From Mycobacterium sp. ITM-2016-00317 (GTDB lineage Bacteria > Actinomycetota > Actinomycetes > Mycobacteriales > Mycobacteriaceae), in contig NZ_CP134399.1 in NCBI RefSeq assembly GCF_002968295.1, positions 4,774,001-4,838,000 on the forward strand: DNA of 64,000 nucleotides, read 5' to 3'. Below the pieces are notes generated by a model that did not search any database, was not told the DNA's origin, and saw only the letters and a list, made by a program, of their open reading frames with translations. The position numbers and the translations under genes are program-made. Positions 32,784-43,570 of this stretch are shown in pieces; the stretch's first letter is position 1; the number at the start of each line of letters is the position of its first letter.

Positions 32784-32788
32784 TCTAG
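31803..32788 (+). pseudogene. IS481-family transposase, frameshifted before the catalytic Glu
   Basis: From GTG 31803: helix-turn-helix region GWSLRRAAERFQVSVSTVRRWVDRY, then the integrase core with Asp in LVHIDVKKLGKI and Asp in VLTDNGSCYRS. The frame is lost after RPYRPQT at about 32595; the continuing NGKVERFHRTLADEWAY with the catalytic Glu is one frame away, requiring one restored base. Repaired length would be 328 residues, normal for the family. The stop TAG (32786-32788) is supplied by the CTAG target site outside the element. Confidence 0.85.
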
Positions 32789-33387
32789 AACAGCTCACCG
32801 TATCTGCGCATCAGGTCGGCGATGTCGCCGTCGAGTGGGAGTTCCAACGAACTGAACAGGCGCGCCAACGTGTCGTAACCACACACGGTGAAGATCAGGT
32901 CGAGCAACTGCTGGATGTCGAGTTCACCGGCCAGCGTGGCCCAGGTCGGTTCTCCGATGGCGCCCTCATGGATCAGTTCGTCGGTGGCCCGCAGCATGGC
33001 GGCCTCCAACGGCGTCCAGAACGGTGCGTCCGGTCCGTAGGCGATCCGCCCGATCTCTTCGTCGGTCAATCCGGCGTCGCGAGCGACAAACAGGTGTTGG
33101 GCCCATTCATAGCCGCACTTGCGCACCGCCGCGACGCGCATGACGAGTAGCTCGCGCTGGCGTTCGGACAGTGTGGTGGCCAGCAACAGATGCCCGTTGA
33201 AGGTGAAGTAGGCCTGCGCCAGCGCAGGATGATGAGCCAGCGTCCCCAAGACGTTGAGCGCTTTAGGGCGATCGTCGGTGGGCAGCGAAGGGTGCCGGGG
33301 GTTCGGCGGTCGTAGCGCAGCGAGTGCCGCCCGCATCTCCGGCGGATACTGCCCAGGGGCGAGAGGCTGGATGCGGGGGCCGGTCAT
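32785..33387 (-). CDS. Carboxymuconolactone decarboxylase-like (AhpD-fold) protein
   Basis: 200 residues from ATG 33387, overlapping the upstream TauD stop (ATGA). All-helical CMD domain with RQRELLVMRVAAVRKCGYEWAQH. Only one Cys is present at the motif, so it is not a CxxC-type AhpD peroxidase partner. Such proteins often act as decarboxylases or as unassigned components of catabolic operons. Its TAG stop lies in the CTAG duplicated by the IS481 insertion, so the coding sequence was left intact although its 3' flank was replaced. A truncated paralogue lies at 34581-34763. Confidence 0.85.
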   Translation of the reverse strand: MTGPRIQPLAPGQYPPEMRAALAALRPPNPRHPSLPTDDRPKALNVLGTLAHHPALAQAYFTFNGHLLLATTLSERQRELLVMRVAAVRKCGYEWAQHLFVARDAGLTDEEIGRIAYGPDAPFWTPLEAAMLRATDELIHEGAIGEPTWATLAGELDIQQLLDLIFTVCGYDTLARLFSSLELPLDGDIADLMRRYGELF

Positions 33388-34220
33388 GAGACGGCCTCCT
33401 CGCCAACCAAGGTGGTGCGGTGCATAAGCCGTCGTGAGGTCGGCTCGTACGGTATCGCGCGGTGCAGCATCCCGGTGTTGTCCCAGACCACCAGATCCCC
33501 CACTGACCATCGGTGGCGCAACACGAACTCGGGTCGGGTGGCCCAGTCCAGGAGTTCGTCGAGGAACTGCCGCCCCTGCGCGACAGGCATCCCCACGATC
33601 TCGGCGGCCGTCGCGCCGATGAGCAGCGAGTCCCTGCCGTCTCGGTGCCGCCAGACCAGTGGATGCTCACGCACCGGGATGCGGTTCCAGCTGGCCCGTT
33701 CCTCGTCGCTCGGATCGGGGTTGAGCAGCAGCTGTGAGGCCGCGACGCTGTGGATCACCCGCAGCTGTCGCAGTTCGGCCTTCTTGTCTTCGGGCAGTGC
33801 CGCGAAAGCGGCGTAGGTGTTGGCGAACTCGGTGTCTCCGCCGTCGTCGGCGACCTCACGCGCCGTCAGCAGCGTGGCCTTCTGCGGGATCTCGTCTGTC
33901 AATCCGTCGGTGTGCCAGAAGACGGTGCTGCGCCGCAAACCGGCGAGAACGCTCTTGGCCGGATCGAGGGTGACCGGCGAGATTTCCGGGTGATCCGGGT
34001 GGGCTCCGGCTTTGGCCATGACGACCTCGCCGAGCCCCCGGCTGAAGGCCACCAGATCGGCATCGGAGATGTGCGCGTCACGGTAGACCACCACCCCGTG
34101 TCGGGCGAGCAGGTTTCGGCATTGCTCGGCTGCCTGTGCGGTGCCGAAAGCATCGCTGGTGAAACCACAGACCTGCACCCCGATCCCGTCCGAGATCGGC
34201 GAGACCGTCGTCGAGGCCAT
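33384..34220 (-). CDS. TauD/TfdA-family Fe(II)/2-oxoglutarate dioxygenase
   Basis: 278 residues, ATG 34220 preceded by GGAGA. The Fe(II) ligands His103 and Asp105 (FWHTDG) and the distal His (MLHRAIPYEP), with the 2-oxoglutarate-binding Arg a few residues on (SRRLMHRTTL), are in place. It couples oxidative decarboxylation of 2-oxoglutarate to hydroxylation of an unidentified substrate (TauD uses taurine; others use aryloxyacids or alkyl sulfates). Two-gene operon with the AhpD-fold protein. Confidence 0.9.
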   Translation of the reverse strand: MASTTVSPISDGIGVQVCGFTSDAFGTAQAAEQCRNLLARHGVVVYRDAHISDADLVAFSRGLGEVVMAKAGAHPDHPEISPVTLDPAKSVLAGLRRSTVFWHTDGLTDEIPQKATLLTAREVADDGGDTEFANTYAAFAALPEDKKAELRQLRVIHSVAASQLLLNPDPSDEERASWNRIPVREHPLVWRHRDGRDSLLIGATAAEIVGMPVAQGRQFLDELLDWATRPEFVLRHRWSVGDLVVWDNTGMLHRAIPYEPTSRRLMHRTTLVGEEAVS

Positions 34221-34333
34221 CAGTTCTCCTTGTCAGTGATGTTCATTCCACCGCAGCCGGCTACTGCGCGGCCGTCGGAGACTGGAGATAGACCCCGAGG
34301 TGGCGAACTTGCCGCCGTCGTTGCCGCACCTAT

Positions 34334-34417
34334 CCCGAAGTAAGGGTACGGGCCGGTGACGAGCGCGGTTTCGGTGAAGAAGTCGAATTCCTCGATCTCC
34401 CTTGTAGCCGTGGCCAT
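34334..34417 (-). pseudogene. 5' fragment of a cytochrome P450 gene
   Basis: The short stretch ATREIEEFDFFTETALV followed by TGPYPYF has the form of the N-terminus of mycobacterial P450s (..DFFTD..LV.DPYPYF..LR). The similarity stops after about 28 residues and no haem or I-helix motif follows, so this is a decayed relic. It lies in a 673-base stretch (34221-34893) without an intact gene. Confidence 0.5.
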
Positions 34418-34478
34418 TCGGTCGTCGACAGATCTGTTCTCACTCGCCACGAACCCCTGCTTCCGCTCATCCCAAGTG

Positions 34479-34513
34479 CTTGTACACCTGCATAGTCCAT
34501 ACGGGTGTACAAG
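34479..34513. repeat. 10-bp inverted repeat between gene remnants
   Basis: CTTGTACACC (34479-34488) and GGTGTACAAG (34504-34513) are perfect complements separated by 15 bases. It sits between the P450 fragment and the AhpD-fold fragment, so it may be an old element end, an operator or a hairpin. Nothing else recognisable lies in this part. Confidence 0.5.
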
Positions 34514-34580
34514 CGCAAGGAGTACCGCTAGCCCCACGGAATCGGCTCGCGGAGAATGCCTCACGCGTCAGCGGTAGTGC

Positions 34581-34763
34581 GAAAGACGCTCTCGCCAGGG
34601 CCGGGTGATGTGCCAGCGTCCCCAGGATGTTGGCGCCTCTCGGGCGCCCTTCGCTGACCAGCTGGTACCGCGGATCGGGTGGAGTCAGCGCCGCCAGCGC
34701 TTCGCGCATCTGCGGCGACCACCGGTTGGGGGGTACAGGCTCCGTACATGGGACATGGGCGAC
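34581..34763 (-). pseudogene. 5' fragment of a carboxymuconolactone-decarboxylase-like gene
   Basis: About 60 residues (WSPQMREALAALTPPDP and GANILGTLAHHPALARA) are clearly homologous to the start of the intact AhpD-fold protein at 32785-33387 (PPEMRAALAALRPPNP, NVLGTLAHHPALAQA). Similarity ends abruptly after the Phe that follows, where the intact protein goes on for about 140 residues. It is a truncated duplicate. Confidence 0.7.
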
Positions 34764-34893
34764 CTCTCGGGATCGTGGGGGGCAGCGGGTATCACGGGTC
34801 AAAGCCGTTGCACAGCTTCGGAGATACGAAGCCCGGTGTATAAATCGCCCGCGGTGGGGCCGCATGGCGTGCTATTAGGCCTACCATCGTGCC

Positions 34894-35325
34894 ATGAGCA
34901 CGTTCGACTCCCCGATACCGCGGTTTCATCTCGCAATGCCGGTTGACGACCTGGACACAGCCCGACACTTCTACGGGGAGGTCCTCGGTCTACCCCAGGG
35001 TCGCAGCGCGGATACCTGGGTGGACTGGAACCTGCGTGGGCACCAGTTCGTCACACACCTGGCACCGGACCGGACCGCAGCCGTGCACAACCCGGTGGAC
35101 GGCCACGACGTCCCGGTGCCGCATTTCGGGTTGATCGTGACCATCCCGGAGTTCCAGACGCTCGCCGAGCGACTCCACGCCGCAGGCGTCACCTTCGTCA
35201 TCGAGCCGTATGTGCGGTTTGCCGGCGAACCCGGCGAACAGTGGACGATGTTCTTACTCGATCCCGCCGGGAACGCTCTGGAGTTCAAAGCGTTCGCCGA
35301 CGACGCGCAGGTGTTCGCCACCTAG
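34894..35325 (+). CDS. Single-domain VOC (glyoxalase-fold) protein
   Basis: 143 residues. Starts with [23 protein letters not shown], then [22 protein letters not shown], and ends [18 protein letters not shown]. Metal ligands would be the two His and the terminal Glu, as in VOC dioxygenases and isomerases. The reaction is unknown. It is the first intact gene after the graveyard and stands divergent from it; the DapB-like gene is convergent. Confidence 0.85.
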
Positions 35326-35340
35326 CTGTGCTGCGGTGCT

Positions 35341-36414
35341 TCACCACATCACCCCGCGGATCATCGCCGTCGGCGGAATGTCCTCCACCGCAACCAGCCC
35401 CGGAGGTGCGGCGCACACCCAGTCGATCGCGTTGACGGCCCTGGCCGCCGTTGAGACACATCCGGCGTCGGTCACGTCGAGCACCGGATGGGACAGGTGC
35501 GTACTGACCTCGACGCGTGGCTCCCCGGCAACGATGACCTTGTGTACGCCGACCTGGCCGTCTGGCGGATATTCCCAGTCCGGGGCGGCCGCCGGGGTCA
35601 ACCGGGTGGTGTGTTCGACGGTGATGACAGGGATCCCGCCACGCATGCCTTCTACGGCGAACCGGACGCCGGCGAGCTGCCCAGGCTCGACGGTCGTCAT
35701 CGTGCACTCGATGCGCTTGTCGGTGTACCACGGTTCATAGCGCTGACGGACGTCCTCGAGTTCCACATCCAGGTGGCGGGCGAGATTGGACACCAAGCCC
35801 CCGAACATCGACGTGATCACTCCGGGTCGAAACGCCATCGGCAGGTCATCGTCCGGCGTCGTCCCGAAACCCATTGCCGTTCCGGTGTATTCGTAGTCAT
35901 CATAGTTGCCGTAGTCAAAGATCTCCTTGACGGTCACCGACTCCGCGCGGGTGGCCAGGCTCAACGCCGCATGGACCGCGGTGTCGGCCGAGTAGCCCGG
36001 GTCGATTCCGTTGACGTACAGCGACGCGGCGCCGGCCTTGCACGCTTCCTCCAATGGGCCGCGCAGCCAGTCGTCTGCCTGATGCGGCGTCACCAACCAC
36101 ACCATCGACGTGCCGACGACGTTGATCCCGGCGGCGAGCAGTTTCGACATCTGTTCGATCGCCTCGATCGGCCGGGTCTCGCCCAGCGCCGTGTACACCA
36201 CGCAATCAGGTGCCAGCGCAATCAGTTCGTCGAGATCGCCGGTGGCGACGATCCCCGTCGGTTCGGTGAGCCCGCACAACTCCGCGGCATCGCGGCCGAT
36301 CTTGTCGGCACCGGAGGCATGGACGCCGACGAGGTCAAGGTCCGGGCGCCCGATGATGGCGCGCAACGAATGCCTGCCCACATTGCCGGTGGAGAACTGC
36401 ACGACTCTTCGCAT
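35341..36414 (-). CDS. NAD(P)-binding dehydrogenase of the DapB-like/amine dehydrogenase type
   Basis: 357 residues from ATG 36414; the frame continues upstream but across the promoter region, so this start is preferred. N-terminal Rossmann motif VVQFSTGNVGRHSLRAI, then LVGVHASGADKIGRDA, GTSMVWLVTPH and GIDPGYSAD. These are features of a mycobacterial family annotated as NAD(P)H-dependent amine dehydrogenase or dihydrodipicolinate-reductase-like. True substrates are unclear. It is divergent from the membrane-protein operon, with the 16-bp palindrome in between, and may share its control. Confidence 0.8.
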   Translation of the reverse strand: MRRVVQFSTGNVGRHSLRAIIGRPDLDLVGVHASGADKIGRDAAELCGLTEPTGIVATGDLDELIALAPDCVVYTALGETRPIEAIEQMSKLLAAGINVVGTSMVWLVTPHQADDWLRGPLEEACKAGAASLYVNGIDPGYSADTAVHAALSLATRAESVTVKEIFDYGNYDDYEYTGTAMGFGTTPDDDLPMAFRPGVITSMFGGLVSNLARHLDVELEDVRQRYEPWYTDKRIECTMTTVEPGQLAGVRFAVEGMRGGIPVITVEHTTRLTPAAAPDWEYPPDGQVGVHKVIVAGEPRVEVSTHLSHPVLDVTDAGCVSTAARAVNAIDWVCAAPPGLVAVEDIPPTAMIRGVMW

Positions 36415-36559
36415 CGATGCATCATCGCCGGGCCCTCCTCCTCCGCGCCACAGAACGCCGAACTTACGTTCCGCCCGCGGAAGAGCCAGTGCACGTCTGC
36501 CCACGCTCACGTTCGGCGCAGCGGTGGTATGGCGCCAAGACGATTGACTCAGCCCATTC

Positions 36560-36575
36560 ACTGACTATAGTCAGT
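36560..36575. promoter_or_regulatory. Perfect 16-bp palindrome, candidate TetR-type operator
   Basis: ACTGACTATAGTCAGT is a perfect palindrome ending 4 bases before the ATG of the first membrane-protein gene (36580) and about 146 bases from the divergent dehydrogenase start. Size and symmetry suit a TetR-family dimer. It overlaps the translation start region, so binding would block transcription into the operon. No regulator gene is present nearby. Confidence 0.65.
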
Positions 36576-36579
36576 CTCC

Positions 36580-37302
36580 ATGAATCTGCCGACGCGGAGC
36601 AGGGGCAGCGGTGGCGCTACCCCGCGACTGCCGGCCGGTGGGCTCGACGAACACATGGAGGCCTCGCGGCGGGCGCAACGACAGGCCGACAAATGGCTCA
36701 TCTGCGGCAGTCTGCTGATCGGCACCGCCGCCCTCGGGATCTTCGGCCTGCCGCTGTTTCTCCGCGGCGTGTGGTTGTTGCGCAAAGCCCAGCGTGACGG
36801 GCTCACGGTCCGGCCGATGCTGGTCACCCTCATCGGCTACCTGGTGATCATCGATGCCGCGATCAACACCGTGGGCTGGGCACTGGACCTGGTCGCCAGC
36901 CACACCATTCTGGCCCGAATCCTGTTGAACGGCTGGGGTGCGATGTTCAACGCCGGCTACTTCTGGCACTACAACGAGCTCTGGCTCGGCGGGGCGGCGG
37001 GCCCCGGCGAGAAGGCGATGGAAGTCGGCATGATCCTGACCGTCTTCACCATGCGGATTGCCGCGGGCATCGGGTTTCTGCAGATGAAGCGCTGGGGTCA
37101 CCAGTGGATGATCGTCACCTGCTGGATGGGAGTGCTGATCTGGTGCCTGTACGTGTTCAACATGACCATGTACGCCGACGTACGCTACGCCGGCGTGGTG
37201 CTGCCGGTGGTGGGTTGGTGGCTCTACGACATCTTCTACATCACCCCGTTCCTGGCGATCCCGTACCTCCATTCGGTCAACCGCGAGATCTTCACCGACT
37301 GA
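36580..37302 (+). CDS. Six-helix membrane protein of the VWA/AAA+/P450 operon (paralogue 1)
   Basis: 240 residues with about six membrane helices (roughly 40-62, 78-100, 112-130, 145-166, 172-192, 200-228). I do not recognise the family. Conserved polar residues sit in or near the helices: [24 protein letters not shown] and PYLHSVNREIF. These His, Glu, Asp, Asn and Tyr residues are candidates for a metal or substrate site (inference). The N-terminal ~38 residues are soluble and basic. A paralogue at 39955-40689 is roughly 80-85% identical over the last ~158 residues. First gene of the operon, behind the palindrome. Confidence 0.8.
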   Translation: MNLPTRSRGSGGATPRLPAGGLDEHMEASRRAQRQADKWLICGSLLIGTAALGIFGLPLFLRGVWLLRKAQRDGLTVRPMLVTLIGYLVIIDAAINTVGWALDLVASHTILARILLNGWGAMFNAGYFWHYNELWLGGAAGPGEKAMEVGMILTVFTMRIAAGIGFLQMKRWGHQWMIVTCWMGVLIWCLYVFNMTMYADVRYAGVVLPVVGWWLYDIFYITPFLAIPYLHSVNREIFTD

Positions 37303-37313
37303 ACTCAGTGACC

Positions 37314-37379
37314 ATGCCCCCCGATCCGATGACGACACCGAAACACCACGACGACAACGACGACGACGACGGGAATTGA
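37314..37379 (+). CDS. Possible 21-residue His/Asp-rich peptide
   Basis: ATG 37314 to TGA 37379 encodes PKHHDDNDDDDGN after a short proline-rich start. It has no convincing ribosome-binding site, and low-complexity repeats of GAC can arise without coding. If real it is a small acidic, potentially metal-binding peptide between two membrane-protein genes of the operon. Confidence 0.25.
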   Translation: MPPDPMTTPKHHDDNDDDDGN

Positions 37380-37380
37380 C

Positions 37381-37488
37381 GTGAGCGGCTGGCTATTCGA
37401 GATATTGCGCTATGTGGCCGCGTGGGGCGGCACCGGACTGATCATCTGGTTCTGGTACTGGATGTTCTCCAACATCGGGACGTTCTGA
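37381..37488 (+). CDS. 35-residue single-pass membrane miniprotein
   Basis: GTG 37381 encodes VSGWLFEILRYVAAWGGTG followed by LIIWFWYWMFSNIGTF and a stop at 37486-37488. Nearly the whole chain is one aromatic-rich membrane helix. It fills exactly the gap between paralogue 1 and the VWA gene (stop 5 bases before ATG 37494). A second miniprotein precedes paralogue 2, so each large membrane protein has a small partner. Tiny helices of this kind are typical accessory subunits of membrane oxidoreductases (known pattern); the role here is inferred. Confidence 0.55.
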   Translation: MSGWLFEILRYVAAWGGTGLIIWFWYWMFSNIGTF

Positions 37489-37493
37489 GCCTG

Positions 37494-39018
37494 ATGGACG
37501 AACTCTCGCATGCCATGGCGTTGGAACGCAGCTGTGCGGTGACTGCCGTCGCGCTCAGCGAACAGCGCCGCAGCGGCGTCCGCCTGGTCAGTGGGCAGCA
37601 CCGCGGCTTCGGGCTGAGCTCCGCGCTCGATGTCGTCCATGTCCCGTACCCGGTGCCCAACCGGGATTGGACCCGCAGAAGCGTGACATGTGGTGTGGCC
37701 CTGCAGTGTTCGCCCAGCAAGGAACGCCTGTCCGAGTACCGGCTCAACGAACTCTCCGCTCGCGAGCTCAACGCGCTGTCCCTCGTCGAAGCCGGAGTGG
37801 CTCTGGGCTGGATAGCCGCGACCTGGCCCGGCCTGCTGCCCGCGGTGCGCCGACATGTTCCCGCGCTGGTGCCCGCCGACGCGGAGATGGACGCCGAGGA
37901 GATGCTCAACCGGGCCGTCGTATTGGCCCGCATCTCGCAGTCACTCGACATCGACCCGCTGCTCGGGACGCTGCCGCGCGCGTTCATCGCGCCGCAGGGG
38001 CTGACCGACAGATTACGCCGCACCTTCGGGCGGATGCCCTGGACGACGAACCAGAAGCGGCTCCCGCGGCCTTACTCGGTGCGCCGGCGGCGACGGCGGC
38101 GTCCGCAACTCCAACCTGCCGCCGCCGAGCCGGCCCCAGGACAACGACCTCGACGTCACCCCCGAACACCGCCCGGGCATCCCCTATCCGGAATGGAACG
38201 AGTGGACCAGCAGCTTCATGCCCGACCACGTCGCCGTCGTCGAACGCACCCATGACGGCCGCACCGGCGAGGCCGGTGTCATCACGGTCGACGTCCGGAA
38301 GTGGTTCGAGAAGAACACCCACCGGGCGATGAAGAACCGCCTCGAAGACGGATCCGACATCGACGTCGACCGATACGTCGGCCACTACCTCGACGTGTCC
38401 ATCGGCGAGGCCGTCGAACCGCGCATCTTCCGCGAGCTGATGCCGGCCGGCCGCGACGTGACGACCGCCCTGCTGCTCGACGGAAGCTCGTCGCTGGGCG
38501 TGCACGGCGGCTCCATCTTCAGGCTCGAGCTGGCGTGCGCCGACGCGCTGTCCAGGGCGATGACGGCTGCCCGCGAACGGCACGGCATCTTCGTCTTCAC
38601 CGGCAACACCCGCCACCGCGTCGAAGTCGACTGCCTCAAGGACTTTGCCGACCGACGCTTCGTCCCGCCGAGCAGCCTGGGTCTGTCCACCGGCGGCTAT
38701 ACCCGCCTCGGCGCGCCGTTGCGGCACCTGACCAGCAGGTTGCTCGCTCAGCCGTCCGAGCGCCGGCTGCTCATCGTCATCGGCGACGGGCTGATCTCCG
38801 ACGAGGGCTACGAAGGCCGCTACGCGTGGGCCGACGCCGCCCACGCTGTCGAAGAGGCCGATGAGGCCGGCGTGGCGGTGTACTACGTCGGCATCGGCCC
38901 CGCGACGGTCGACCCGTTGCCGGAGGTGTTCGGGCCCCGACGATCCCAACGGATCCGCCGGGTCGAAGACCTACCGCGTGTCCTCGCCCATGTCCACAGA
39001 GAGTTGGTTTCGGCATGA
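37494..39018 (+). pseudogene. VWA-domain protein of the CoxE/NorD/CbbO kind, frame disrupted in the linker
   Basis: About 508 residues when repaired. The N-terminal helical domain (37494-38040: MDELSHAMALERS ... RLRRTFGRMP) is followed by an acidic linker (DDEPEAAPAALLG in one frame, GAGGDGG and NLPPPSRPQDNDLD in the next) and a VWA domain to 39018 with the MIDAS motif LLLDGSSSLG, IFVFTGNTRH and LLIVIGDGLISDEGY. Frame changes occur near 38040 and 38085; each needs one extra base. VWA proteins of this type work with MoxR AAA+ ATPases to insert or remodel metal centres, as NorD with NorQ and CbbO with CbbQ. It overlaps the AAA+ gene by four bases (ATGA). Confidence 0.75.
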
Positions 39019-39806
39019 ACGACACCTACTACGCGAACGGCGCCGAGGTGCGGCTGTTCGAGCAGGCCTACCGACAGCGCTTGCCCGTCATGCTCACCGG
39101 CCCGACCGGCTGCGGCAAGACGCGGCTCGTCGAGCACATGGGTCTGCTGCTGCGCCGTCCCGTTGTGACTATCAGCTGCCACGACGATCTGACCAGCTCC
39201 GATCTGGTCGGCCGGTTCATGGTCACCGGCGGTGACGTGGTGTGGACCGACGGGCCGCTGACGCGTGCCGTCAAGGCCGGCGCCATCTGCTACCTCGACG
39301 AGGTCGTCGAGGCGCGGCACGACTCGCTCGCCGTGCTGCACTCACTGACCGATCACCGGCGCACTCTCTACCTCGACCGGGCGGGCGAAGTGGTGCAGGC
39401 GCCCGAGACCTTCATGCTGGTCTGCTCGTACAACCCCGCCTATCGCAGCTCCCTCAAGGAACTCAAACCCTCGTTCCGGCAACGCTTTGTGACGCTGCCG
39501 ATGAGCTACCTGGCGCCCGACCGGGAGGCCGAGGTGATCGTCGCCGAGGCAGGCATCACGCCGGGCAGTGCCCAGCGGCTGGTGCGGTGTGCCACGGCGA
39601 TCCGTACCGCTGACGAAGCCTTCCGCTTCGAGCCGCCGTCGACCCGGGTGCTGGTCACCGCTGCACACCTGATCGCCGCGGGCGCAACCGAACTCGAGGC
39701 CGCGCAGGCATGCATCCTGGCCCCGCTGTCCGGTGACGGCGCCGTCACCGACGGACTGCGCGAGGTCGCCGCGGCCGGCCTGGCCGACGCAGACAGCCCC
39801 ATCTAG
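39015..39806 (+). CDS. MoxR-family AAA+ ATPase, CbbQ/NorQ type
   Basis: 263 residues. Walker A GPTGCGKT (29-36), Walker B ICYLDEV (about 93-99), sensor region SYNPAYRSSLKEL and RQRFVTLPMSYL. These are hallmarks of the CbbQ/NirQ/NorQ/GvpN branch of MoxR ATPases, about 260-280 residues long. Such proteins form hexamers that, with a VWA partner, activate metalloenzymes. The VWA partner is encoded directly upstream with a 4-base overlap. Enzymes it might activate are the membrane paralogues on either side or the P450 (inference). Confidence 0.9.
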   Translation: MNDTYYANGAEVRLFEQAYRQRLPVMLTGPTGCGKTRLVEHMGLLLRRPVVTISCHDDLTSSDLVGRFMVTGGDVVWTDGPLTRAVKAGAICYLDEVVEARHDSLAVLHSLTDHRRTLYLDRAGEVVQAPETFMLVCSYNPAYRSSLKELKPSFRQRFVTLPMSYLAPDREAEVIVAEAGITPGSAQRLVRCATAIRTADEAFRFEPPSTRVLVTAAHLIAAGATELEAAQACILAPLSGDGAVTDGLREVAAAGLADADSPI

Positions 39807-39826
39807 AGCACGAGGAGGAGACCGAG

Positions 39827-39958
39827 ATGGTGGACCAGAAGGAAAAGAAGCGCAAGCGGGCACTGATCGTGTTGCAGATCGTCATCTACGGCTACCTGCT
39901 CACGATGTTCCTGATCCAGCTCTACATGTCCTTTGCGCGCGGATGGTGGTATCTGTGA
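39827..39958 (+). CDS. 43-residue membrane miniprotein
   Basis: ATG 39827 has a strong GAGGAGGAG ribosome-binding site at 39812-39820. The product has a very basic start ([11 protein letters not shown]), one membrane helix ([19 protein letters not shown]) and a short aromatic end (RGWWYL). The basic N-terminus predicts N-in orientation. Its TGA overlaps the GTG of paralogue 2 (GTGA), so the pair is translationally coupled. Confidence 0.75.
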
Positions 39959-40689
39959 ATCTCCCCATGCTGAAACGGAAGTCGGGGGTAAAGGTCACGG
40001 CCGGTGTCCCGGCGCAGGGCTCGGGCAATCTCGAAGAGCACCACGAGCGGTCCCGGCTGGCCCAGCGCGGGGCGGACAAGTGGATGATCGCCGGTGCCGC
40101 GCTGATGGGGATGTGGGCGCCCGGTCTCATCGGGCTGCCGATCTTCCTGCGCGGCGTGTGGCTGCAGCGGCAGGCGCTGCAGGCAGGGCTTTCGGTCCGG
40201 CCGATGATCGTCACGCTGATCGGCTATCTGGTGTTGATCGACGGCATGCTCAACAGCCTCGGCTGGGCGCTCGACCTGGTCGCCAACCACACGCTGATCA
40301 ACCGCGTGCTGATGGTCGGCTGGGGCGCCATGTTCAACGCCGGCTACTTCTGGCACTACAACGAGGCGTGGATCGGCGGGGCCGCCGCTCCGGGCGAGAA
40401 GTCGATGGTGTTCGGCATGATCCTCACGGTCTTCGCTATGCGGTGCGCCGCGGCGATCGGCTTTCTGCAGATGAAGCGCTGGGGCCACCAGTGGATGATC
40501 ATCACCTGCTGGATGGGCGTGCTCATCTGGTGCCTGTACGTGTTCAACATGACCATGTACGCCGATGTGCGCTACGCCGGCGTGGTGTTCCCGGTCATCG
40601 GCTGGTGGCTCTACGACATCTTCTACATCACCCCGTTCCTGGCGATCCCCTACCTGCACACGGTCAACCGCGAAATCTTCACGGACTGA
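39955..40689 (+). CDS. Six-helix membrane protein (paralogue 2)
   Basis: 244 residues from GTG 39955 ([15 protein letters not shown]). The alignment with paralogue 1 (36580-37302) runs from the soluble N-terminus to the identical last residues NREIFTD. Invariant between the copies are [50 protein letters not shown] and [19 protein letters not shown]. Near identity at the DNA level in the last 220 bases suggests recent duplication or gene conversion. The two may form a heterodimer. Function unknown. Confidence 0.82.
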
Positions 40690-40709
40690 ACACCTTCAAG
40701 GAGCCGATC

Positions 40710-41111
40710 ATGACCACCACAGACGAGAAGACCGCCGAGGACCTGCCGCCGGGCACCACCCCGTATTACGCGCGGATGCACAAGTGGATCAAGCGCGCGG
40801 TGCTGGTGTGCCTGGTCGCGCTCGTCATCGAGGGTGCGTTCACGTTGCCGTTCATGGCCGTGTACTACGGCTACCCCACCCTGAGCCTCACCGAGATCTG
40901 CAGCGAACTCCTCAAGGTCCGGTACTCCGACGACGCACTCGAATGCCAGGTGCCGTATCCGGCGTTCGGCCCGCCGGAGGGCGCGGAGGGTAAGGACACT
41001 GCGCAGGACCAGTGGGGCATCCAGCCGGTCCCGCAGTACAACCGGATCGGTTTCCGTGAACTGGTGCGCATCCATGAGGAGCGCGAAGCCCGTGCGGCGG
41101 TGTCGCCGTGA
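40710..41111 (+). CDS. 133-residue single-pass membrane protein with extracytoplasmic tail
   Basis: ATG 40710 behind AAGGAG at 40698-40703. After a cytosolic start (~27 residues) one membrane helix ([24 protein letters not shown], about 30-53) leads to an ~80-residue tail. The tail has two Cys (TEICSEL and LECQVP) that could form a disulfide outside the cell membrane, and a proline/aromatic stretch. I recognise no family. It precedes the P450 with a GTGA overlap, so it belongs to the operon and may dock the P450 or the membrane subunits (inference). Confidence 0.75.
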
Positions 41112-42337
41112 CGCTGACGCCGGACCAGCATGCCGACAACTGGGATCTGCGTCATGAGGACTTCAACGACCCCGACCTGATTTACGACGTCTACTCGGTG
41201 ATGCGGAAGGGATGCCCGTTCCCCCACACCGGCACACCGTTTCTCGGCGACCCGCCAGGCGGCGCGTGGGTCGCGACGCGCTACGCCGACTGTTACCGGA
41301 TCGCCCAGGACTGGGAGCACTTCTCCAGCAACCCCTTACCCGGATCCGCCGAGTTCGTCGTCGGGGATCTGGTGGTGATGATGGATCCGCCGCGCCAGCA
41401 GAAGTTCCGCAGGGTGCTCAACCCGTACTTCTCGCCGGCGCGGATGAAGGCGCTGCGGCCGCAGATCACCGCCGAAACCGACATGCTGATCGACGATTTC
41501 GCCGCGGCAGGCGTCGGTGACCTTGCCCGCGTCGCGTGGCTTCAGCCCGGCATCGTGCTGTTCAAGTACGTTCTCGGCATGCCGACCGAGGACGTGACGG
41601 TGTGTTTCGACCTCACGGACACCGCGCTCAACGGCGACACCGAGCCCATCCGCATGTCCGCGTGGGGCGAGCTGTACCAGCACATCCACGACACGGTCAC
41701 GGCGCGCGGCGGGCGACCCGCACGCGACGACATGGTCGACGTGCTGCTGTCGGCCGAGATCGACGGCGAAAAGCTGACTTTCGAGGATATCGTGGCCAAC
41801 GCGATGCTGCTGGTGCAGGCCGGGCTCGAAACCACGGCCAGCGCGATGTCCTTCGCCTTCCATCACTTCGCCGCCCATCCCGAGGACCGGCAGCGGATCC
41901 TGTCCGAACCCGATCTGCTGCCGCGTGCTGTCGAGGAACTGATCCGCTACGCCGGGTCGATCCACGGGCTGCACCGCACCGTGGTCGAGGACGTCGAACT
42001 CGACGGCCACCTCTTCCGCGCCGGCGACACCGTGGTGGTGAACTTCGCGTCGGCCAACCGTGACGACGACGTGTTCCCCGATGCCGACCAATGCCTCCTC
42101 GACCGCAGCGAGAACCGCCACCTCGGCTTCGGCGCCGGAGTGCACCGGTGCCTCGGCTCCAACCTGGCCCGCCTCGAGCTCCAGGTCGGCGTGCAGCAGG
42201 CGCTCACCAGACTGCCGGACCTCGCGCTGGACCCCACCCGTCCGGCCCGGTTTCGCGGCAACTCGATCACCCGCGGATTCCTCTCCGTCCCAGTCACGTT
42301 CACACCCGCTGGCCGCGACGCCGGAAACCACGACTGA
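41108..42337 (+). CDS. Cytochrome P450
   Basis: 409 residues, soluble bacterial class. The oxygen-activation I-helix is AGLETTASA, the ExxR motif EELIR, and the haem-thiolate loop [17 protein letters not shown] with the axial Cys. It starts at GTG 41108 overlapping the stop before it. No ferredoxin or ferredoxin reductase gene is adjacent. It is the last gene of the unusual operon, so its substrate may be what the membrane complex handles or produces. A relic of another P450 lies at 34334-34417. Confidence 0.92.
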
Positions 42338-42436
42338 ACCGGCGGGGTTACGATGCGGCGGCCGGCACGTCGCGGTCCACCATCGTGGATACATTGGTGG
42401 TGTCGCTCGTGTTCACATCTGGGAAAGAGGTAGGTC

Positions 42437-43105
42437 ATGCGGGTCGTCATCGCCGGCGGGCACGGCAAGATCGCTCTGATCACCTCGCGACTGCTGTCGG
42501 CGCGCGGCGATTCGGTGGCGGGCTTCATCCGCAATCCCGACCAGGCCGACGACCTTCGTGTCGCGGGTGCCGAGCCGATCCTCCTCGACCTGGAGAACAC
42601 CACCAACGGCGTGGTGTCCACCCATCTGCGCGGTGCCGACGCGGTCATCTTCGCCGCCGGCGCCGGACCGGGCAGCGGGGCGGCCCGCAAGGAGACCGTC
42701 GACCGTGACGCCGCGATCCTGCTGGCCGACGCCGCCGAAGCCGCCGGTGTGCGGCGCTACGTGATGATCTCGTCGATGGGCGCCGACGCCGAGGCCCCCG
42801 ACGACGCCGGCGATGAGGTCTTCGTCGCCTATCTGCGCGCCAAGGGCGCCGCCGACGACGTGATCCGCGCGCGCACAGGTCTTCTCACCACGATCGTGCG
42901 GCCAGGACTGCTCACCGACGGCGACCCGACCGGTCGGGTCACCATTGGCGAGCACACCGGCCGTGGCAGCATTCCGCGCGCCGATGTCGCGGCAGTGCTG
43001 GTCGCGGTGCTGGATGCGCCGGCCACGGCGGGCCACACCTTCGAGGTGATCGCGGGCGCCACCGAGATCGCGGTGGCGCTGGCCGAGTCAGTCGGCGACG
43101 CGTAG
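42437..43105 (+). CDS. NAD(P)-binding protein, atypical SDR (NmrA/SDR_a5 type)
   Basis: 222 residues. Starts MRVVIAGGHGKIALITSRLLSARG, a GxxGxxx Rossmann motif, followed by VISGFIRNPDQ-like and DLENTT, ISSMGAD and IVRPGLLTD segments typical of the YwnB/NmrA-like atypical SDRs, used as regulators, epimerases or quinone reductases. It lies 99 bases after the P450 and is probably transcribed separately. It faces the convergent SRPBCC gene. Confidence 0.8.
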   Translation: MRVVIAGGHGKIALITSRLLSARGDSVAGFIRNPDQADDLRVAGAEPILLDLENTTNGVVSTHLRGADAVIFAAGAGPGSGAARKETVDRDAAILLADAAEAAGVRRYVMISSMGADAEAPDDAGDEVFVAYLRAKGAADDVIRARTGLLTTIVRPGLLTDGDPTGRVTIGEHTGRGSIPRADVAAVLVAVLDAPATAGHTFEVIAGATEIAVALAESVGDA

Positions 43106-43123
43106 CAGCGCCACGTCGGAGGC

Positions 43124-43570
43124 TCAGGACGGCGCGAAGACGGCCTTGAAGCGGTTCAGCGACTCCTGGATGTCACCCTTGAGCGCACCGGCGACCACCA
43201 TCCCGATCGGCCCGAACAGGGCGGGCCCACCCAGATGGACGTCGAACGTGACGGTCGACGCCGCCGGATCTTGCGGGCTCGGCTTGATCTTGCCGATCAG
43301 CTTGACCTTGACACCACCCTTGCCGTCACCGTTGAGCGTCATCGCCTCCGGCGGGCGGTAGTGCACCACCGTCCAGCTCACCCGGTTGGGCATACCTTTG
43401 ACCTCGACGATCGAGTCGAGCTTGGTGCCCTTTTCGATGACGTCGGGCAGCTTGGACCGCCACACCCGGTGGATGGACAGCCACTCCTTGTAGCGGGACA
43501 GATCCGACGCGCTCTCCCACGCCTTCTCGGGCGGCAGCGGAACGTCGACGGAGACCGAGAGTTTGGCCAT
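43124..43570 (-). CDS. SRPBCC-fold protein, Rv0910-type toxin homologue
   Basis: 148 residues. Polyketide-cyclase/START-like fold: VSVDVPLPPEKAWESASDLSRYKEWL, VEVKGMPNRVSWTVVHY and GPIGMVVAGALKGDIQESLNRFK. By sequence and position (next to the Rv0909-like gene and ctpE) it is the orthologue of M. tuberculosis Rv0910, reported as a toxin of a type II pair. The fold suggests lipid or small-molecule binding, so the toxin role in this species is not certain. It starts 14 bases after the antitoxin stop, consistent with one operon. Confidence 0.85.
   Translation of the reverse strand: MAKLSVSVDVPLPPEKAWESASDLSRYKEWLSIHRVWRSKLPDVIEKGTKLDSIVEVKGMPNRVSWTVVHYRPPEAMTLNGDGKGGVKVKLIGKIKPSPQDPAASTVTFDVHLGGPALFGPIGMVVAGALKGDIQESLNRFKAVFAPS

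Follow-up and report, generated by a model that had tools for sequence, protein, structure and literature searches.

A stretch of 64,000 nucleotides from the genome of Mycobacterium sp. ITM-2016-00317 (hereafter the window; the host genome is one contig of 6.06 Mb) encodes a tightly packed run of genes in which two paralogous polytopic membrane proteins, MemA1 and MemA2, are accompanied by two tiny proteins (mini1 and mini2), a single-pass protein with two cysteines (two-Cys), a MoxR AAA+ ATPase with a VWA partner of the NorQ/NorD type, and a cytochrome P450. Structure prediction indicates that the MemA proteins very probably have the fold of EBP and the sigma-2 receptor, known as EXPERA, and we consider it probable that the NorQ/NorD-type pair (NorQD) acts on a complex of which they form part. 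Literature searches, which covered few subscription journals, found no described system with this gene set, in agreement with an earlier note on this DNA, nor any link between an EBP-like fold and a MoxR/VWA machine.

The related loci, the best 80 of 283 by MemA2 similarity and as such biased towards complete clusters, keep the genes for MemA1, mini1, the VWA protein (both halves), the AAA+ ATPase, mini2, MemA2 and the two-Cys protein on one strand and in a fixed order in 79 cases; in the remaining one (L055) the contig is cut inside the VWA gene, and the cluster genes from VWA onward are present. Because strand and order are shared by 79 of 80 loci, the run is far beyond chance, and the neighbourhood survey bears out the co-occurrence of these genes in other genomes. 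Its gene positions, as well as the overlaps at 39015, 39955 and 41108, were also recovered. The VWA gene, described there as an open frame of 266 aa, is really longer, since it starts at 37494 and is frameshifted near 38082; it is a single open frame in 79 of the 80 relatives, the 80th being the cut contig of L055. The nearest named relatives of the cluster are found in Mycolicibacterium (M. vaccae, M. parafortuitum and M. austroafricanum).

MemA has no matching family entry in Pfam or NCBIfam. It occurs in 23 of 35 listed genomes of the same genus, in 26 of 298 genomes of the order, in 22 of 345 of the class (one false match removed), in 9 of 396 of the phylum, and in 1 of 249 of another class, that of genome G121. 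Weak matches in L101, L102 and L161 (genome G1129) were dropped on inspection by eye, of the ORF itself in the last case, and a short match occurs also in G787:C7 (E 2.9e-6). A distant MemA group is about 30-45% identical to the remaining members and 31-37% identical to MemA2. The two window paralogues, previously called near-identical, deserve the term in their C-terminal half only (88%), the N-terminal part being 63% identical and the whole 74-75%. In a tree of 62 rows, whose long branches the tree program flagged as unsure, MemA1 and MemA2 form separate clades (support 99/98 and 100/100), and therefore they stem from an old duplication of which both copies have been retained, a history that, as read from sequences, fits two different subunits.

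The identity of the AAA+/VWA pair as NorQ/NorD-type, already proposed, is backed by domains and structural matches (Table 1): the ATPase carries AAA_5 and CbbQ_C domains and matches NorQ structures, the VWA piece matches NorD, and Walker and MIDAS motifs are present. Its linkage to MemA recurs in several lineages. In the best known case, insertion of the FeB iron into cNOR is reported to require NorQD, and NorD is thought to touch acidic surface residues of cNOR via its VWA MIDAS site or linker (PMC13036017, PMC9976466). With cNOR as a precedent, a membrane client is likely for the present pair by analogy, metal insertion not being implied. The cluster shares with NorQ/NorD and CbbQ/CbbO the same type of AAA+ protein and a VWA protein that is NorD-like by sequence and motifs; it differs in its partner membrane proteins, which have a different predicted fold, and in the length of the VWA protein, about 510 aa in locus L005 compared to 638-646 aa in the NorD chains of the PDB. 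A scan of 15 reading frames of the window (32785-43570) showed neither norB nor norC. In an Aldersonia locus, another VWA/AAA+ pair (L037 15086-15958; identities of 32% and 52%) lies about 7 kb downstream of MemA2.

As to the likely client, the AlphaFold model of MemA2 has six long helices, in line with the six-helix description given before, whereas a plain hydropathy scan detects five segments in each MemA. The predicted fold shows the helical arrangement of EXPERA proteins and covers EBP over residues 33-215, the larger part of its chain. EXPERA proteins ranked first in the first VIA list and took ranks one to four in the second, and the sigma-2 receptor with bound cholesterol was among the top fold matches. 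The fold matches listed for MemA included neither PmoA/PmoC nor AmoA/AmoC (copper membrane monooxygenase), nor any other metal-dependent membrane oxygenase. The earlier note had read the paralogues as a membrane metalloenzyme and had itself held that likeness to a characterised family with a different role would speak against this; the resemblance to EBP and the sigma-2 receptor is of that kind.

EBP and TMEM97/sigma-2 receptor (EXPERA, PF05241) are thus the known proteins to which MemA comes closest, sharing the predicted fold and having a conserved Asp that hhalign, without significance, aligns with EBP D108, the most conserved EXPERA position (PMC4263179). MemA departs from EBP in having D and N instead of H76 and E80, in approximately one added N-terminal helix, in its duplication, and in being accompanied by mini proteins and usually also by NorQD. 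Bacterial PF05241 or EBP-type proteins had already been noted in mycobacteria (PMC9903846, PMC4818103), and we find such proteins in mycobacterial relatives at L176 802-1830, L177 1069-1821, L180, L190 and L191. L176 exceeds the cut-off of PF05241, L177 and L180 scored lower in that search, and L190 and L191 were found with L177. All of them retain a GD.RY or AD.RY motif that MemA does not have, and no NorQD was seen near them in the stretches of about 3-4 kb read.

The residue pattern was tallied over 31 family members (MemA2 numbering). Among the positions tallied, R82, D96, N100, W104, Y131, E148, R206, W218 and P232 are invariant. Position 128 is Asp in 29 of the 31, and Asn in both window copies; in a larger set it is Asp in 188 of 190 sequences (distinct translated stretches, some being one gene with two start points), Asn occurring only in the window MemA1 and MemA2. 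The spacing between D96 and D128, 32 residues, is that between H76 and D108 of EBP (residues after PMC4263179) when aligned by hand, and a non-significant hhalign alignment pairs D119 and Y122 of the G121 protein (equivalent to D128 and Y131) with EBP D108 and Y111.

The same tally bears on whether MemA1 and MemA2 could make up a membrane oxygenase or oxidase that depends on a metal and receives its iron from NorQD, as cNOR does. The His and Glu residues called invariant in the earlier note had been judged on the two paralogues and vary in the family: position 134 is His in 26 of 31 members, 178 is His in 23 and 137 is Glu in 25. Even in the copies of G121 and G918 that stand with NorQ and NorD, the putative metal-site positions are D, L or F, which argues against a histidine-based site, and no evidence for a metal was found. 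EBP and the sigma-2 receptor are not known to need a metal, and this, together with the lack of a metal-dependent membrane oxygenase among the fold matches listed, leads us to regard both this reading and any metal involvement as unlikely. A second alternative, less probable still, is a lipid- or sterol-binding or transport device resembling the sigma-2 receptor, feeding the P450 and the dehydrogenases without chemistry of its own. The cholesterol-bound sigma-2 receptor among the top matches and the MlaE and MlaD (Mce-type) genes near MemA in G121 speak in its favour; several polar residues, however, are invariant across distant members, and a MoxR/VWA pair would be an unusual companion for a carrier.

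Several observations weigh against an EBP-like assignment and have to be set beside the structural likeness. The Foldseek matches of the MemA model have E-values above 0.8, the best PF05241 score of the MemA family is 19.3 bits for a cut-off of 25.7, and alignments by hhalign with an EXPERA set are full-length but weak. Moreover, the residue at EBP position 80 is Asn in 31 of 31 MemA members (in an alignment made partly by hand and partly by non-significant hhalign), so that the chemistry need not match that of EBP. The window MemA proteins gave no match in the PF05241 profile search, and hhalign returned no signal with human EBP alone or with a single bacterial EBP-type protein. Searched across the family, PF05241 matched 12 of 61 genomes at E <=1, and control genomes likewise (7 of 14); one match was over the cut-off, and the places listed include no MemA locus. 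Three of the matches (L178, L179 and L181) were found on reading to be unrelated. Because the profile score stays under the curated cut-off, we speak of an EBP-like fold and not of a PF05241 member. That the match is a mere coincidence of small helical membrane proteins, MemA being an unrelated new family, would agree with E-values that are never significant over the cut-off, yet it seems the least probable explanation given the EXPERA proteins at the top of both VIA lists, the nearly full coverage of EBP and an independent PF05241 match that likewise points to EXPERA.

Table 1. Cluster features by position in the window
Feature	Position	Strand	Basis or remark
Palindrome TGACTATAGTCA, directly before MemA1, likely TetR operator	36562..36573	.	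TGACTNNAGTCA kept near MemA1 start in relatives
MemA1, polytopic membrane protein, predicted EBP/EXPERA-like fold	36580..37302	+	Fold via 74% identity to modelled MemA2
mini1, 35 aa, probably single-pass	37381..37488	+	Matched in 79/80 loci; hydropathy segment not over threshold
NorD-like VWA gene, frameshift near 38082	37494..39018	+	3' piece: PDB NorD E 2.6e-24, MIDAS DGSSS
VWA gene pieces	5': 37494-ca.38081; 3': ca.38082-39018		3' piece has the VWA domain
NorQ/CbbQ-type MoxR AAA+ ATPase	39015..39806	+	Pfam AAA_5 and CbbQ_C; PDB NorQ E 3.1e-76; Walker A/B
mini2, 43 aa, single-pass membrane protein	39827..39958	+	One hydropathy TM (transmembrane segment); 80/80 loci
MemA2, MemA1 paralogue, predicted EBP/EXPERA-like fold	39955..40689	+	AlphaFold model
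Two-Cys protein, single-pass, both Cys after TM segment	40710..41111	+	One hydropathy TM; 80/80 loci
Cytochrome P450	41108..42337	+	Pfam p450; PDB CYP125MRCA E 3.4e-57; heme, ExxR and I-helix motifs
Divergent neighbour, DapB/2,4-diaminopentanoate dehydrogenase-like oxidoreductase, associated but outside the core	35341..36561	-	Pfam DAP_DH_C

Other lineages offer a varied panorama of MemA gene sets. Three genomes of the same family (G050, G846 and G881) have one MemA with mini1, NorD, NorQ, mini2 and the two-Cys gene, and the same single-MemA set occurs in another family of the class (G1160, G1088 and G1111), where G1160 and G1088 add a P450 and an SDR-like gene. In G121, from another class, we find a P450, MemA, NorD (35-37% identical), NorQ (51%), a short two-Cys protein and, by eye, mini1 and the TM part of the two-Cys protein. 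G918 carries two MemA copies, one accompanied by NorD and NorQ, the other followed by a PF00004 AAA ATPase; in G899, too, such an ATPase follows MemA in place of NorQD. A PF00004-type AAA ATPase, and not NorQ/NorD, stands after MemA at L173 8230-9490, where a Rieske-domain protein comes next, and at L174 10133-11002. In G947 and in the M. branderi megaplasmid, neither NorQ nor NorD was seen with MemA in the stretches read; the best VWA matches of G947 (E 2e-27) and G899 (E 8e-18) are far ones.

Third MemA copies were also found, with mini1, mini2 and the two-Cys gene in G775 and G746, and with mini2 and the two-Cys gene in G850, in all cases without NorQD and with AMP-binding, P450 or aldehyde dehydrogenase genes nearby; the one close NorD of each of these genomes sits in its main cluster. 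Since modules without NorQD exist, the four membrane genes behave like a unit separable from it. Among the loci, such mini1-mini2-MemA-two-Cys modules without NorQD are those of L133, L136 and L137 (mini1 not detected in the last), close to AMP-binding, P450 or aldehyde dehydrogenase genes. In L172-L174 and L099 11726-11974, M. branderi being among these cases, mini1 and the TM part of the two-Cys protein are, by eye, apparently one fused protein, hinting that the two subunits may sit together.

The P450, which the earlier note placed at the product or substrate of the membrane pair, is less firmly tied to the cluster. An orthologue (>55% identity) is present in just 41 of 80 loci, and in others a DapB-like dehydrogenase is directly next, often with other P450s further on; some DapB-like homologue, paralogues counted, occurs in 65 of 80. 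Favouring the link, six genomes (G121, G947, G918, G775, G1160 and G1088) have other P450s at most about 9 kb from a MemA gene, a count that comes with no background rate. The window protein has the heme Cys, ExxR and I-helix motifs, and its best solved match is a chain of the CYP125 cholesterol hydroxylases, which does not make it a CYP125.

Regarding regulation, a perfect palindrome, TGACTATAGTCA, precedes MemA1 in the window. In 66 of 79 related loci the pattern TGACTNNAGTCA is found close to the aligned start of MemA1 (-200..+40), compared with 63 sites in 1.29 Mb elsewhere in these loci, some of them inside the cluster. Across the 6.06 Mb of the host genome it occurs twice, as it does in the backward-read control, so no wider regulon is suggested. 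A related TetR gene occurs in 78 of 80 loci, between MemA1 and mini1 in L005 and upstream in L061 and L138, and its product may well bind the conserved palindrome.

The cluster TetR gene is absent from the window, though the operator-like palindrome persists, and the nearest TetR proteins of the own genome share 54% and 51% identity with that of L005. Since this loss, the frameshift in the NorD-like gene and the Asn128 of both MemA copies agree, the cluster looks partly decayed in this genome. The window P450 is also divergent (median identity of 69% to orthologues versus 79% among orthologues), and that of L029 equally so. Sequencing error could account for the frameshift alone, but hardly for all these signs. 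Against decay, the other cluster frames are uninterrupted, and the expected motifs are present in NorQ, in the VWA domain and in the P450.

Altogether, we propose that MemA1 and MemA2, as distant EBP/EXPERA-fold proteins, would form one membrane complex with mini1, mini2 and the two-Cys protein, which would bind and convert a polycyclic or isoprenoid, sterol-like lipid through a polar cluster (D96, N100, D128, E148 and R206) placed roughly as in EBP. As its dedicated machine, the NorQ/NorD-type pair would dock on the complex and remodel it, be it to assemble it, to insert a cofactor or to reactivate it, while the P450 and dehydrogenases would catalyse preceding or following steps of a catabolic route and the TetR protein would control the cluster through TGACTNNAGTCA. 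The reaction might be an isomerisation or the epoxide opening of a P450 product. We lean slightly towards a lipid or sterol-like substrate, and the combined mechanism seems to us a little better than an even proposition; that a two-paralogue enzyme of the EBP/sigma-2-receptor fold, with tiny single-pass subunits, depends on a NorQD-type machine is put forward more tentatively.

The novelty would lie in a NorQD-type chaperone pair with an EBP-like client. MoxR/VWA chaperones are known from respiration, CO oxidation and Rubisco, and, if the proposal is true, they would be extended to lipid metabolism and gain a lipid-converting client, with EXPERA-fold proteins gaining an ATP-driven activation step; the literature searches brought up neither such a client nor such a step. 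EXPERA proteins such as EBP, the sigma-2 receptor/TMEM97 and TM6SF2 are drug targets. They also matter in human sterol disorders (PMC4263179), and their Pfam family is mostly eukaryotic (84%; PMC9903846). A widespread bacterial relative of these proteins would, with its defined operon, provide a genetic model for the function of the fold.

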